Part shown: one piece after another, positions 49,637 through 58,812 of the stretch
How the letters are laid out: each line of letters starts with the position of its first letter
Numbering within the stretch: position 1 is the stretch's first letter
Assembly (NCBI GenBank): GCA_028689665.1
Contig: JAQVCR010000003.1
Location: 1-64,000, forward strand
DNA length: 64,000 bases
Direction: 5' to 3'
DNA from: Muribaculaceae bacterium
Lineage (GTDB): Bacteria > Bacteroidota > Bacteroidia > Bacteroidales > Muribaculaceae
Notes under the pieces: generated by a model
Told to the model about the DNA's origin: nothing
The model's database searches: none
The model's input: the letters and a program-made list of their open reading frames with translations, nothing else
Translations under genes and position numbers: made by a program

Positions 49637-50944
49637 ATGGAATATTATAGTACTAATGATGTAAATGTCAAAGCCACGCTAAAAGAGGCAGTTGTGCGTG
49701 GTCTTGCGCCGGATAGAGGGCTTTTTATGCCCGAAAGATTAACTTCATTGCCTCAAGCGTTTTTCAATAATATTGCAAATATGTCTTTGCAAGAAATCTC
49801 GTTTGTAATAGCTAATACTTTATTTGGAGACGATATTGACTCAGAGGTGTTAAAAGATATCGTTTATGATACAATGAATTTTGAGATACCTCTAGTATAT
49901 ATTAATGAGAATCGTTATAGCCTTGAATTGTTTCATGGACCTACATTAGCCTTTAAAGATGTAGGTGCTAGGTTTATGGCTCGATTACTTGGACATTTTA
50001 ATTCAAAAAATTCGGGTACTACAGTTAATGTACTTGTAGCTACATCGGGCGACACCGGAAGCGCAGTCGCTAATGGTTTTTTAGGTGTTCCCGGTGTAAG
50101 AGTCTTCGTCCTTTATCCACAAGGCAAGGTAAGCAAGATTCAAGAAGCTCAATTTACAACGTTGGGACAGAATATTACGGCAATAGAAGTGAACGGAACA
50201 TTTGACGATTGTCAAGCATTGGTGAAAAATGCCTTTATGGATTCCGATCTTAATGCCGCAATGAAATTGACTAGCGCAAATTCTATAAATGTAGCTCGTT
50301 TCTTGCCACAGATGTTTTATTATTTTTATGCTTATGCTCAACTTGCTAAGCGTGGTCAAGACTTAAATAATATTGTTTTTTCTGTTCCTAGTGGCAATTT
50401 TGGAAACATTTGTGCCGGATTGATAGGAAAGGCTATGGGGTTGCCAATTAAAAGATTTATTGCTGCTAACAATCGTAACGATATATTCTTTAAGTATTTG
50501 CAAACGGGAAAATATGAGCCAAAAGCTTCTATATCGACCATTGCTAACGCTATGGACGTGGGTGATCCTAGTAATTTTGTCAGAATATTAGATTTATATA
50601 AACATTCTCATAGCTCTATTTGTGCCGACATTAGCGGGTGTACATATACCGATGAACAAATTTCTGAAACTTTAGCAACTACATATAGTAAAGAAGGCTA
50701 TCTTCTCGACCCTCATGGGGCGGTTGCATATAGGGCTCTGCTAGAAAATTTGAAATCTGATGAAACGGGAATATTTATTGAAACTGCTCATCCCGCTAAA
50801 TTTAAAGATACTGTTGAGCGTATAATATCAGATAATGTCGTAATACCGGCTCGCCTTGAAGCATTTATGAAAGGGAAAAAAGAAAGTGTCAAAATGCCGG
50901 CGACTTTCTCAATATTTAAAAATTATCTGTTATCAAAGGCGTAG
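49637..50944 (+). CDS. thrC: Threonine synthase
   Basis: 435 residues, PLP enzyme converting O-phosphohomoserine to threonine. N-terminus YYSTNDVNVKATLKEAVVRGLAPDRGLFMPE; LFHGPTLAFKDVGARFMARLL contains the PLP lysine (FKD). ATSGDTGSAVANGF and SVPSGNFGNICAG are the phosphate-binding loops. Last gene of the threonine operon, followed by a terminator at 51009. Confidence 0.96.
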   Translation: MEYYSTNDVNVKATLKEAVVRGLAPDRGLFMPERLTSLPQAFFNNIANMSLQEISFVIANTLFGDDIDSEVLKDIVYDTMNFEIPLVYINENRYSLELFHGPTLAFKDVGARFMARLLGHFNSKNSGTTVNVLVATSGDTGSAVANGFLGVPGVRVFVLYPQGKVSKIQEAQFTTLGQNITAIEVNGTFDDCQALVKNAFMDSDLNAAMKLTSANSINVARFLPQMFYYFYAYAQLAKRGQDLNNIVFSVPSGNFGNICAGLIGKAMGLPIKRFIAANNRNDIFFKYLQTGKYEPKASISTIANAMDVGDPSNFVRILDLYKHSHSSICADISGCTYTDEQISETLATTYSKEGYLLDPHGAVAYRALLENLKSDETGIFIETAHPAKFKDTVERIISDNVVIPARLEAFMKGKKESVKMPATFSIFKNYLLSKA

Positions 50945-51038: not shown

Positions 51039-51171
51039 ATATCTGTGTGTGCGATATGAAATCGGCTTCGTCGTTGCTAAAATTATTGTATTGTTGTTCT
51101 ATACTTTATCACAACCTCTAATAACGCTTTAATTTATATTTACTTTGATTCTGTTGATGCTTCAATAGATA

Positions 51172-51206
51172 TAAAAAGAAAGCACCTCGAATCACTTCGC
51201 GGTGCC
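51172..51206 (-). terminator. Minus-strand terminator of the small-ORF unit
   Basis: Minus strand: GCACC, CGAA, loop GTGA, TTCG, GGTGC (one internal mismatch), followed by TTTCTTTTT. The plus direction has no T-run, so the terminator serves a transcript coming from the right. Confidence 0.8.
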
Positions 51207-51277
51207 TTAGGAAAAAATAGTATGAATAAAATGTGGTATTAGGGTTAACTTTTATCTTTAATAGATAAATATTAAAT

Positions 51278-51358
51278 TTATCTTGTTATTATCTTCATAA
51301 ATCTTCCTTGGATAATAGGAAGAGTCTTGTCTGGAATTAATCTTGCAACTTCCGCCAT
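51278..51358 (-). CDS. Candidate 26-residue ORF, second in minus-strand unit
   Basis: ATG to TAA, MAEVARLIPDKTLPIIQGRF then MKIITR. The start codon lies inside a hairpin made by ACTTCCG / CGGAAGT (plus coordinates 51348-51354 and 51402-51408), with an inner 8-bp stem CACTCAGG / CCTGAGTG. Initiation could therefore be controlled by RNA folding. No family recognised. Confidence 0.35.
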   Translation of the reverse strand: MAEVARLIPDKTLPIIQGRFMKIITR

Positions 51359-51437
51359 TATGTTCACTCAGGAAATCCCTGAGTGAGATTTGTTACACAA
51401 TCGGAAGTGATAAAATATATCTTAGATATATTTAAGA

Positions 51438-51575
51438 TTACTTACCTACGTTGTTTTTAGTGTGGCAAGCCACATAACAACTTCTGCGTGCCGATGCCAT
51501 AAGTGAGGCATTCGGGTGGAACGAATGAGCCGGCATGCGTCTCAAATGTCCGTCATTGTGCATGTTCATTTCCAT
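51438..51575 (-). CDS. Candidate 45-residue Met/His/Cys-rich ORF, first in minus-strand unit
   Basis: ATG 51575 to TAA 51438. It starts MEMNMHNDGHLRRMPAHS and ends in a segment with CYVACH and a Lys/Asn tail. Five Met, five His and two Cys in 45 residues look like a metal-binding peptide; there is no signal peptide or hydrophobic helix. It is clearly richer in G+C than the flanks and lies about 115 nt after a full consensus promoter. The same bases fold into stable stems (CATTCG/CGAATG, TGCCG/CGGCA, TGTGG/CCACA), so it may be RNA and not protein. I do not recognise it. Confidence 0.4.
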   Translation of the reverse strand: MEMNMHNDGHLRRMPAHSFHPNASLMASARRSCYVACHTKNNVGK

Positions 51576-51697
51576 AATTTAATTAATTTACAACTTGCTC
51601 TCTTGCAAGTCAATCTAAAACAATCTATTATCGCAAATGCGAAATTAATAATTATAATACAAATCTAATCATCTCGATTGATTTTGTATTTGTTATG

Positions 51698-51728
51698 CAA
51701 AAATAGTTATAATATTCCATATTGCAAA
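51698..51728 (-). promoter_or_regulatory. Consensus promoter of the minus-strand unit
   Basis: Minus strand TTTG (51725-51728), a 19-base spacer and TATTTTTG (51698-51705): an exact match to the Bacteroidetes promoter. Transcription starts near 51692, divergent from the glycosidase lipoprotein gene. Confidence 0.8.
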
Positions 51729-51837: not shown

Positions 51838-54510
51838 ATGAATATAAAGGGCTTATTTTTATCAGGCATTGTTTTTTGTTTATTATCCAGTTGTGATATC
51901 TTTAAACAATCAGATGATATAATATATGAAAATTCGAGCTATAACGTTACTAGAGAAAGTGTAATACAAGGCGATTATAGAGCGGTAGCAGTAAGTGATA
52001 CTGAAATTAGGACTAATTATGTAAGTCCAACAGAAAATGATATATCTTCTGTTGTGGAATTTCGTCTTTCTTTTAATTCTAAAGACAATGAGTTCTATAA
52101 TAGAAAGTCGCATTATGCAATAATTGGTGAAAGCGATAGCGTGATATATCATGTGGGCGAATCGCAAGATTATCCAACCACTGAAAATACAAAACTTGCA
52201 AAAAATGTGAAATGGGTTGTGAGAATAGACATGGCACCTGTCTTTGAAGGTTTTAGCAAAAAAGGCTTTTATGTAACTCCAAGCAATGATACTATAAATT
52301 CTGCCGATTTTAAAGGCGTTTGGATTGCCGGGAGTGTAGAGCCTTTAACGTGGGATTTTGATAATTTATACGCTAAAGATCAATTAAAATTTAAGCCTGA
52401 AAGTAAAAATTCTAAGATTTATTCGGTTGAGCTAACATTAAATCCGACTACCGACAATGATGCTGTATCAAAATCGTGGAAAATAGATAAAATTGATAAA
52501 AATTATCCGCAGGTTAATAGTGGAGCTGTATTAGTCGATGCATTATATAATATGGCTATTGAAAATTTAAAATCTAATATTAGACCTGATAGTACATTCC
52601 GTGCTGGGGCTGGTTGGGACGGTGTCTGGACTCGTGATGTTTCTTATTCTACATATTTAGCTCTTGCATATTTAAATCCCGATTTCGCTAAAAACAGCTT
52701 ATTTAAAAAGGTAAAGAATGATAGAATCATTCAAGATACGGGTACGGGGGGATCGTGGCCTATTTCCTCCGATAGAATTGTGTGGGCTACTGCCGCATGG
52801 GAGATTTATGCCTTCACCGGCGACAGAGTGTGGCTACAATATTCATATAATGTAATAAAGAATAGTATTGCCGATGATGAGAAGGTTGTCTATGATTCTA
52901 ATTATAATCTTATGCATGGCGAACAGAGTTATCTAGACTGGCGCGAACAAAGTTATCCGAAGTGGATGCAACCAAAAGACATATATGAATCTATGACTCT
53001 TGGAACAAATATATTATTCTCTCATGGTTATTTAATTCTTGCTAAGATGTCGAAGGAACTCGGTATCGTAGATAGTAATTATGAACAGAAGGCGAATCAA
53101 TTAAAACAAGCCATAAATGAAAAAATGTGGCTAAATAATGAAGGCTATTATGGTGGCTATCTTTATGGTGGTGTATATCCTTTATTATCATCTTGTATTG
53201 ACAATCTAGGACAATCATTAAGTATAATTTTTGATATCGCATCGGAGGGTAACGCTAAAAGTATTATTTCAAATACTCCTATAACTCATTTTGGCACAAC
53301 TTCAATTTATCCAATGATAAAAGATATAAAACCATATCACAACGATGCTGTATGGCCTTTTGTTCAGAGTTTTTGGAACTTGGCGGCAGCAAAGGTGAAA
53401 AATAAATCTGCCGTAAATCACGGGTTGGGTGCAATGTATAGAGCTGCAGCATTATTTGGAACTCATAAAGAATTGTTTGTAGCATCGACGGGCGACTATA
53501 AAGGCACTGCAATTAATTCGGATAAGATGCTTTGGAGCGCGGCTGGCAATGTAGCTATGATATTTAGAATGTTTGCCGGTATGAATTTTGAAACTAGAGG
53601 AATAGTTTTTAAGCCTTTTGTCCCCGAATTTTTTGAAGATGGAATTAGAATTTCAAATTTCAAATATCGGGATAGCAATATTGATGTTATTATTAATGGA
53701 TATGGCGATAAATTAGCGAGTATTACAATTGATGGGGTAGAAGTTGGTGATATGTGCTATCCGGCTAACTTTAAGGGCAGACATATTGTTGAAATAACCA
53801 TGAATAATAACATAGATTCTGATGATGAAATAAACTTAAACTATGTCGTTGAGATGCCCGAATCGCCTCGACTAAGGTGGAATAAAATGACTTCAAAAAT
53901 TGAAAATTTCTGTGATAGATGTTCTTACATGGTATATCTAAATGGTAAAAGATATGTTAAGGAGAAAACCCCAACCTATATAATGCCGGTAGCAAAAGTG
54001 CTGACTGTTGCAACGATAGAGGCTAAAGAAGGAAAATATACAGGATTTTCAAGTAAACCTTATGAACAAATTCCAATAGATAATGTTTTTTCTTTTTCCT
54101 TTAACAAATATGCTCTTTCAGGAACAATTTATATACCGGGAAATAAAAGTAATGAATTTGTAGAGACTAGTGTTTCAAAAAATACAATTATTGAAATTCC
54201 TATAAATATCGATAAAGAAGGCGAATATTTTGCCGATATTTGTTATTCTAATGGTAGCGGTCCTATAAACACCGACAATAAGTGCGCTATTCGTACATTA
54301 TTTGTTAATGGAGAAGAAGTTGGCGCAGTGGTAATGCCTCAACGTGGACTTGGAGAGTGGCAAAATACGGGCTTTAGTAATCGCTTGCGTGTGAAGTTGA
54401 ATAAAGGTAACAATATATTGAGCGTAAGGTATATTGTGCCGCAAAATATTAATATGAATGGAGAAATTAATACAGCTCTCCTTAAATATATAAGATTGAT
54501 AAAGAAATAG
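51838..54510 (+). CDS. Lipoprotein glycosidase with (alpha/alpha)6-barrel (MGH1/GH63-like) domain
   Basis: 890 residues. A lipoprotein signal with lipobox LSSC (Cys19) anchors it in the envelope. An N-terminal beta domain (about 30-220) precedes the helical barrel (about 225-615): GAGWDGVWTRDVSYSTYLALAYL, WATAAWEIYAFTGDRVWLQYSYN, SYLDWREQSYPKWM and PYHNDAVWPFVQSFWNLAAAK. These Trp/Asp-rich motifs are typical of glucosidase/trehalase/debranching clans. A further beta domain (about 620-890) may bind carbohydrate. A GH13 gene follows by 24 nt, suggesting alpha-glucan or related oligosaccharide use. The precise substrate is not known. Confidence 0.82.
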   Translation: MNIKGLFLSGIVFCLLSSCDIFKQSDDIIYENSSYNVTRESVIQGDYRAVAVSDTEIRTNYVSPTENDISSVVEFRLSFNSKDNEFYNRKSHYAIIGESDSVIYHVGESQDYPTTENTKLAKNVKWVVRIDMAPVFEGFSKKGFYVTPSNDTINSADFKGVWIAGSVEPLTWDFDNLYAKDQLKFKPESKNSKIYSVELTLNPTTDNDAVSKSWKIDKIDKNYPQVNSGAVLVDALYNMAIENLKSNIRPDSTFRAGAGWDGVWTRDVSYSTYLALAYLNPDFAKNSLFKKVKNDRIIQDTGTGGSWPISSDRIVWATAAWEIYAFTGDRVWLQYSYNVIKNSIADDEKVVYDSNYNLMHGEQSYLDWREQSYPKWMQPKDIYESMTLGTNILFSHGYLILAKMSKELGIVDSNYEQKANQLKQAINEKMWLNNEGYYGGYLYGGVYPLLSSCIDNLGQSLSIIFDIASEGNAKSIISNTPITHFGTTSIYPMIKDIKPYHNDAVWPFVQSFWNLAAAKVKNKSAVNHGLGAMYRAAALFGTHKELFVASTGDYKGTAINSDKMLWSAAGNVAMIFRMFAGMNFETRGIVFKPFVPEFFEDGIRISNFKYRDSNIDVIINGYGDKLASITIDGVEVGDMCYPANFKGRHIVEITMNNNIDSDDEINLNYVVEMPESPRLRWNKMTSKIENFCDRCSYMVYLNGKRYVKEKTPTYIMPVAKVLTVATIEAKEGKYTGFSSKPYEQIPIDNVFSFSFNKYALSGTIYIPGNKSNEFVETSVSKNTIIEIPINIDKEGEYFADICYSNGSGPINTDNKCAIRTLFVNGEEVGAVVMPQRGLGEWQNTGFSNRLRVKLNKGNNILSVRYIVPQNINMNGEINTALLKYIRLIKK

Positions 54511-57354: not shown

Positions 57355-58812
57355 ATGGAAAATAATAATACTCGCGATGCCAATTGGCGCGAAGATTTAA
57401 GAAAAAGTAAATCGGCTAAAGATCGTACATCAACTCCACGTGTGAAGATGCCCGAGCTTGATGGTAAATATCGTGTCGAACATCGTCTTGAGGAGGTGAA
57501 TCAAGGGCTTACTGCCGAGATGGCTCTGATTGAGGCGACTCGTTGCCTCGATTGTCCCGATCCTCAGTGCGTAACTGGCTGTCCGGTTAATATTAATATA
57601 CCGGGTTTTATTAAAAATATCGAAAGAGGCGAATTCCTTGAAGCGGCTAAAGTGTTAAAAGAAACCAGTGCGCTACCTGCCGTATGTGGTAGGGTATGTC
57701 CTCAAGAGAAACAATGCGAAAGCCGTTGCATTCATTTAAAAATGAAAAAAGAGGCTGTTGCAATTGGTTATCTTGAACGATTTGCCGCCGATAACGAGCG
57801 AATATCAGGAAATATTGCTCTACCCGAAGTAGCTCCATCTAATGGCATTAAGATTGCTGTCGTGGGTAGTGGTCCTGCAGGACTTTCTTTTGCCGGTGAT
57901 ATGGCTAAACGAGGATATTCAATAACAGTTTTCGAGGCTTTGCACGAAATTGGGGGTGTACTTAAATATGGTATCCCTGAATTCCGTCTGCCTAATGCCG
58001 TTGTCGACGTTGAGATAGACGGACTTCGCAAAATAGGCGTTGAATTTATTAAAGATTGCATTATCGGAAAGACTCTGTCTTACGATGATTTGCACGATAT
58101 GGGATTTAAAGGAATATTTGTGGCATCGGGCGCCGGATTGCCTCGCTTTATGAATATTCCGGGTGAGAATCTTAATGGAATAATGTCGAGCAATGAGTAT
58201 CTAACTCGCGTAAATTTAATGGGTGCCGGTTGTGATGGTTGTGATACTCCCGTGCTTAAAGGGCATAATGTGGCAATAATAGGCGGTGGAAACACTGCAA
58301 TGGATTCTGTCCGCACCGCACGACGGATGGGCGCTGAAAGAGCGATAATAGTTTACCGCCGTTCGGAAGAGGAGATGCCTGCACGGCTCGAAGAGGTTAA
58401 GCACGCCAAAGAAGAAGGCATTGAGTTTATGACTCTTCACAATCCTATCGAATATATAGGCGATGAGAATGGTCGTGTAAAGGCTATGCGAGTTCAGCGT
58501 ATGGAGCTGGGCGAGCCTGATGAGTCGGGACGTCGTTCACCAATAGCCATCGAAGGCGCAATTATTGAAATTCCGGTAGATATGGTAATAGTAAGTGTGG
58601 GCGTTTCGCCCAATCCACTTGTGCCAAAGTCGATAGCAGGACTAGATGTAAGCCGACGCAATACCATAGTAGTCAACGAAGACACCATGCAATCATCTAT
58701 AAGTGATCTATATGCCGGAGGCGATATTGTACGTGGTGGCGCAACAGTAATCCTTGCAATGGGAGATGGTCGCCGCGCCGCGCAGCACATGCACGAAGCA
58801 TTATCAAAATAG
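57355..58812 (+). CDS. nfnB: NADPH-dependent glutamate synthase small-subunit-like flavoprotein (NfnB/GltA type)
   Basis: 485 residues. An N-terminal Fe-S domain with CLDCPDPQCVTGCPVNINIPGFI and AVCGRVCPQEKQCESRC would hold two [4Fe-4S]. FAD site VVGSGPAGLSFAGDMAKRGYSITVFE; NAD(P) site IIGGGNTAMDSVRTARRMG; C-terminal YAGGDIVRGGATVILAMGDGRRAA. No glutamine amidotransferase or large GltB chain is nearby, so glutamate synthesis is unlikely; with the upstream gene it forms an Nfn-type complex balancing NADH, NADPH and ferredoxin pools. Start ATG 57355. Confidence 0.9.
   Translation: MENNNTRDANWREDLRKSKSAKDRTSTPRVKMPELDGKYRVEHRLEEVNQGLTAEMALIEATRCLDCPDPQCVTGCPVNINIPGFIKNIERGEFLEAAKVLKETSALPAVCGRVCPQEKQCESRCIHLKMKKEAVAIGYLERFAADNERISGNIALPEVAPSNGIKIAVVGSGPAGLSFAGDMAKRGYSITVFEALHEIGGVLKYGIPEFRLPNAVVDVEIDGLRKIGVEFIKDCIIGKTLSYDDLHDMGFKGIFVASGAGLPRFMNIPGENLNGIMSSNEYLTRVNLMGAGCDGCDTPVLKGHNVAIIGGGNTAMDSVRTARRMGAERAIIVYRRSEEEMPARLEEVKHAKEEGIEFMTLHNPIEYIGDENGRVKAMRVQRMELGEPDESGRRSPIAIEGAIIEIPVDMVIVSVGVSPNPLVPKSIAGLDVSRRNTIVVNEDTMQSSISDLYAGGDIVRGGATVILAMGDGRRAAQHMHEALSK

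Follow-up and report, generated by a model that had tools for sequence, protein, structure and literature searches.

A stretch of Muribaculaceae DNA of 64,000 nucleotides (hereafter the window) was found to carry, on its minus strand, a transcription unit that we judge rather more probably than otherwise to be an mRNA which encodes a micropeptide and ends in a 3' small-RNA module pairing with the seed of FopS small RNAs, thereby likely titrating FopS as a 3'-end sponge and relieving SusC repression. The best reading of the mRNA 3' end is thus that of a FopS sponge, or at least of a FopS partner, and it draws on elements that are evident in the sequence, namely a promoter, a coding ORF1, a conserved 3' module, a terminator, copies of FopS encoded by the same genome, and a complementarity preserved by different means from lineage to lineage. 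In the mechanism proposed, the module arm, being complementary to a portion of the FopS seed, would occupy FopS, upon which the repression of SusC-type glycan transporters would be relieved. What is presumed is that both RNAs pair in the cell, that sequestration of FopS is the outcome, that this species releases or accumulates a short form, and that SusC is linked to it. Complementarity alone carries no direction of regulation, and an action of FopS on the module RNA would represent the opposite direction.

Layout of the minus-strand transcription unit

The unit is located in an 893-nt gap between thrC, which ends at 50944, and the next gene, which starts at 51838 and is lipoprotein-like with 890 codons. 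A preliminary description of this DNA, made from its letters, had placed a complete minus-strand unit in the gap, and sequence comparison confirms that 51172-51728 represents a real, self-contained transcription unit. The Bacteroidota-type promoter reported there (51698-51728, minus strand) is indeed an exact match to TTTG-N19-TATTTTTG, a spacing that occurs only three times on both strands of the window (128 kb), and in most relatives a promoter of this type likewise precedes ORF1 by a similar distance (130-183 nt). Transcription would start near 51691 and generate a predicted full-length RNA of 521 nt, beginning with a 5' leader of approximately 116 nt (51576-51691) whose length is comparable in relatives and whose last 30 nt before ORF1 are 88% identical within the genus designated g23. 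Just 5' of the ORF1 start in g23 loci (e.g. L042), the sequence CCCATAATTTAGAGAAACTATGGG, 88% identical within the genus, folds into a short hairpin covering the start codon, a feature missing from the window.

As judged from its sequence conservation, the unit consists of two selected islands, ORF1 and the 3' module, with a linker between them that is not under selection. The higher G+C content of ORF1 relative to its flanks was likewise found as described (0.47, versus 0.24 for the leader and 0.29 for the linker). The predicted RNA fold is better than that of 100 out of 100 shuffled sequences (z -5.4). The hairpins of the linker (51253-51437) are not conserved, the identity of this region within g23 being about 20-55% and mostly below 40%. 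The linker also contains ORF2 (51278-51358), a 26-codon frame which does exist but for which no counterpart was found in any relative and which was therefore rejected as a gene. Since neither ORF2 nor the hairpin at its start codon is conserved, no two-gene operon or translational switch, as had been suggested, is supported. In the preferred reading, the unit would be a monocistronic mRNA composed of the micropeptide gene and the 3' small-RNA module.

The ORF1 micropeptide

ORF1 (51438-51575, minus strand) specifies a 45-amino acid peptide, MEMNMHNDGHLRRMPAHSFHPNASLMASARRSCYVACHTKNNVGK, and corresponds to the 45-codon frame of the preliminary description, which had proposed codon-level conservation tests for both frames. 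ORF1 behaves as a real micropeptide: in g23, the most densely sampled genus, its dN/dS is 0.14, i.e. the protein-level selection expected for the ORF of a dual-function RNA, and differences are distributed over the three codon positions as 124/124/384, a pattern that the two other reading frames over ORF1 do not exhibit. Differences in the cross-genus alignment also fall largely on third codon positions, and the family shares the motif LPxHAYHPNxxL...RxGY(V/I)AxP, of which the residues P, H, H, P, Y and A are invariant. A profile constructed without the window retrieved ORF1 from the six-frame translation of the window at an E-value of 1.2e-10, the next best match being at 0.7.

Of 297 Muribaculaceae genomes, 43 contain ORF1, and in a sample of 395 genomes from the class the window's own genome was the only one to yield it. 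No match was obtained in Pfam or NCBIfam and no credible match in phages or viral contigs, and AlphaFold produced a low-confidence model (pLDDT 63) without a confident fold. On sequence grounds, ORF1 is a true conserved micropeptide gene of Muribaculaceae type that represents a new family. ORF1 of the window is rich in Met, His and Cys, in line with the earlier proposal of an operon for a metal-binding micropeptide, controlled by a translational switch. As the cysteines differ between relatives or are missing from them and two histidines alone are invariant, metal binding is unsupported, and given furthermore that ORF2 is missing from relatives and that the linker hairpins are not conserved, we regard such an operon as very improbable.

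Standalone micropeptide genes of the genus g17 (L268, L270, L272, L274, L276-L278) are often followed by a convergent gene that by eye resembles the small subunit of glutamate synthase; in the window this gene is present at 57355-58812, approximately 6 kb from the unit.

The 3' module and its complementarity to FopS

The 3' module (51172-51252, minus strand) comprises the last ~80 nt of the unit, namely ~40 single-stranded nt, whose core is almost invariant, and then an intrinsic terminator, the hairpin and T-run of which were found at 51172-51207, essentially where they had been indicated. The unpaired stretch 5' of the terminator carries a nearly invariant UUUAUUCAUACUAUUUUU..CC, and the UUUUAUUCAUACUAUUUUUUCC segment (51210-51231) is almost identical across all lineages, which differ in T-run length. 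The architecture is that of a trans-acting small RNA, with a mostly single-stranded seed and a terminator; the alternative suggestion of a structured RNA was therefore correct as to a conserved RNA element but not as to many hairpins.

An initial comparison with relatives revealed strong cross-genus conservation for the final ~90 nt of the unit alone: the 90 nt of 51170-51259 share 94% identity with another genus (E 8e-29). The search of relatives and the structure model that the preliminary description had recommended revealed the module in 42 of 297 family genomes, spanning seven genera, with a terminator helix of 12 consensus pairs, seven of which are changed on both sides with pairing kept. 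The model search found one copy in the window's own genome, two in a few relatives and no credible copy outside the family among 393 genomes of the order, where one weak match was judged spurious by eye. The invariant word of the module was recovered from 69 contigs in a scan of 84,980 species, these being labelled as Muribaculaceae or other Bacteroidales from gut and rumen, apart from one 'uncultured bacterium' and one chance match, a sequence from Erysipelotrichaceae (L090) that lacks a terminator of this kind and coincides with the beginning of an opposite-strand ORF. Rfam gave no match in the gap at gathering scores and none that was credible at E-values up to 10. Diverged relatives of the module, with TTCATACTATATTTTTT followed by a similar hairpin, may represent additional g17 copies (L182 and L191, both at ~1500), and two contigs of one genome (C63 and C73 of G017; L004 and L016) both end within the module with about 20 bases in common, reflecting either a repeat or an assembly break.

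In the window's genus, g23, g27 and some g17 members, the module is situated 110-420 nt downstream of ORF1 on one transcript, whereas the sequence upstream of it in other long-form lineages (g18, g21 and g28) yielded no ORF1. In most g17 members the module takes the form of a free-standing small RNA of ~70 nt with its own promoter, the promoter box ending 17-20 nt, or in a few ~25-30 nt, before the invariant stretch, while in many g17 genomes the micropeptide gene is separate with no module behind it. Because the module occurs in g17 as a promoter-driven small RNA by itself, it would act apart from the ORF. These arrangements bear on the proposal that a conserved terminator region merely stabilises a micropeptide mRNA, the FopS complementarity being incidental: the module does follow the ORF in g1, g23 and g27 wherever both were read, but the separate g17 genes, a nearly invariant single strand of ~20 nt that a 3' stabiliser does not need, and a complementarity achieved through different words in each lineage make this explanation improbable.

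In gut Bacteroides, FopS small RNAs play a central part in the post-transcriptional regulation of glycan uptake: they pair close to start codons and thereby repress the translation of SusC, and the protein RbpB is the only antagonist reported in that work (PMC11697453). The R1' consensus of FopS is GTGTTTTTCATAGTATTAGATTTAAGGTTAACAAA (PMC11697453), and its reverse complement has GTTAACC and CTAATAC in common with the module arm GUUAACCCUAAUACCA (51234-51249, minus strand), which is complementary to the FopS seed in two blocks of 9 and 7 bp, between which FopS bulges out by 6 nt. The arm thus corresponds to the reverse complement of parts of R1' and not to the R1' seed in sense, and it constitutes the best FopS site within the 521-nt RNA, with a calculated arm:FopS seed energy of -16.9 kcal/mol compared to -7.7 +- 2.1 kcal/mol for shuffled sequences. 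GGUUAAC and UGGUAUUAG are the segments expected in the predicted pairing, and the arm is predicted to be about 70-80% unpaired, an accessibility that would suit a sponge. Elsewhere in 2.57 Mb, CTAATACCA and CCTTAAATC are rare words, with 7 and 6 occurrences, respectively, and neither of the longer TTAACCCTAATACC and ACCTTAAATCTAA occurs there.

Across lineages at least four arm types were distinguished whose pairing with the FopS seed far exceeds that of shuffled sequences, each using different parts of the seed (GUUAACC with CUAAUACCA, ACCUUAAAUC, AACCUUAAAUCUAA, and UUAACC with UCUAAUACC), so that complementarity to the seed of a co-occurring small RNA is conserved, as expected for a sponge, with the exception of L068, L122 and L129. 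The latter three belong to one subclade that keeps the module, in which FopS complementarity was either lost or never present, and three further genomes (G108, G122 and G691) display weak pairing with the FopS copies read. FopS from the same genome often pairs more strongly than foreign FopS (e.g. -21.6 versus -18.9 in G690, -20.0 versus -16.0 in G022 and -19.1 versus -15.7 in G132), the mean difference being just 0.7 kcal/mol.

The genome of the window contains ten RF04319 matches, seven of which, scoring 60-85 bits, exceed the curated cut-off. Of the 18 module-bearing genomes searched, each gave matches at E-values of 0.01 or better, and 13 had matches over the cut-off. FopS (RF04319) consequently reaches beyond Bacteroidaceae into Muribaculaceae; in the window's genome (G000) its seed has G instead of A (CAUGGUAUUAG), and FopS loci are located there on contigs C4, C5, C8, C12, C43, C47 and C50 (L136, L147, L156, L219, L237). 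When the R1' reverse complement was searched for, both the own genome and relatives yielded several sites. Nearly all of these are FopS genes (RF04319) on the opposite strand, and an initial reading of the CCTTAAATCTAATACCATG sites as SusC leaders was therefore wrong. Between FopS of the own genome and the regions around SusC starts the complementarity is mild (mean z -1.1), which is a weak signal. An RRM protein resembling RbpB was observed in two of seven family genomes searched (L192 and L193; G026 and G000), six of the seven carrying the module, and as FopS was found in each of the other five, genomes with FopS often have no detected RRM partner.

The part of the module that is most conserved differs from the FopS arm, and it is this UUUUAUUCAUACUAUUUUUUCC segment that would act as seed if the module were an ordinary trans-acting small RNA that base-pairs across start codons or binds a protein, with the arm as a site at which FopS regulates it. 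Such a role would be in line with the higher conservation of the segment relative to the arm, with an AUG in A-rich context in its complement, with its sense-orientation resemblance to the FopS seed (UUCAUA[G/C]UAUU) and with its retention in lineages without FopS pairing, yet no mRNA target above chance emerged for it. Complementary sites were not enriched (42 versus 48 for the control), none of the 30 own-genome sites read was at a start codon, and no target of the module recurred across 12 genomes; we thus consider this role the less likely one, if a serious candidate. With regard to specific targets of the seed, rbpB mRNA showed no pairing, SusC mRNAs gave an unconvincing mean z of -0.5, and other start codons no excess.

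Significance and relation to known regulatory RNAs

RNA sponges and small RNAs derived from 3'-UTRs are known kinds of regulator, yet to our knowledge no RNA sponge is known in Bacteroidota, and a search of open-access literature on Bacteroides small RNAs, FopS and sponges returned no description of a FopS sponge. If true, a FopS sponge would be the first in the phylum and would be joined to a new micropeptide family. A broader proposal, which we put forward tentatively, is that the first Bacteroidota RNA sponge, free-standing or attached to a 3' end, captures the FopS family and thereby sets SusC translation, and that in several genera it is joined to the mRNA of an undescribed micropeptide in the same circuit. 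As only two of the seven family genomes searched have an RRM protein, an RNA antagonist would account for the release of FopS in the remainder. Two new families are furthermore available for curation, the small-RNA module, which is not in Rfam, and the micropeptide, which is not in Pfam or NCBIfam.

SroC of enterobacteria is a 3'-UTR-derived sponge of GcvB, and the module would be like it in being the 3' portion of an mRNA that is (as predicted) complementary to the seed of another small RNA. Phylum and partner differ, the host mRNA encodes an unfamiliar micropeptide, and the module is also an independent small RNA gene. SgrS/SgrT exemplifies the dual-function type of mRNA, with which the unit shares a small ORF and a putative regulatory RNA on one transcript, although here both are encoded apart in many relatives; the regulatory activity of the module RNA is suggested by its conservation and complementarity. 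Similar to GibS (PMC7366714), the module has the extended single-stranded seed of a Bacteroides-type small RNA, but GibS has R1 in sense, whereas the module RNA has its complement. With FopS (RF04319, BTncRNA_FopS; PMC11697453) it has in common a single-stranded 5' seed followed by an intrinsic terminator, the promoter type and, for its short form, a similar length. The gap has no RF04319 match at gathering score or even at an E-value of 10, the module is single-copy in its own genome in contrast to a multicopy FopS, its 5' arm is antisense rather than sense to the FopS seed, and, unlike FopS, it is often attached to a coding ORF.
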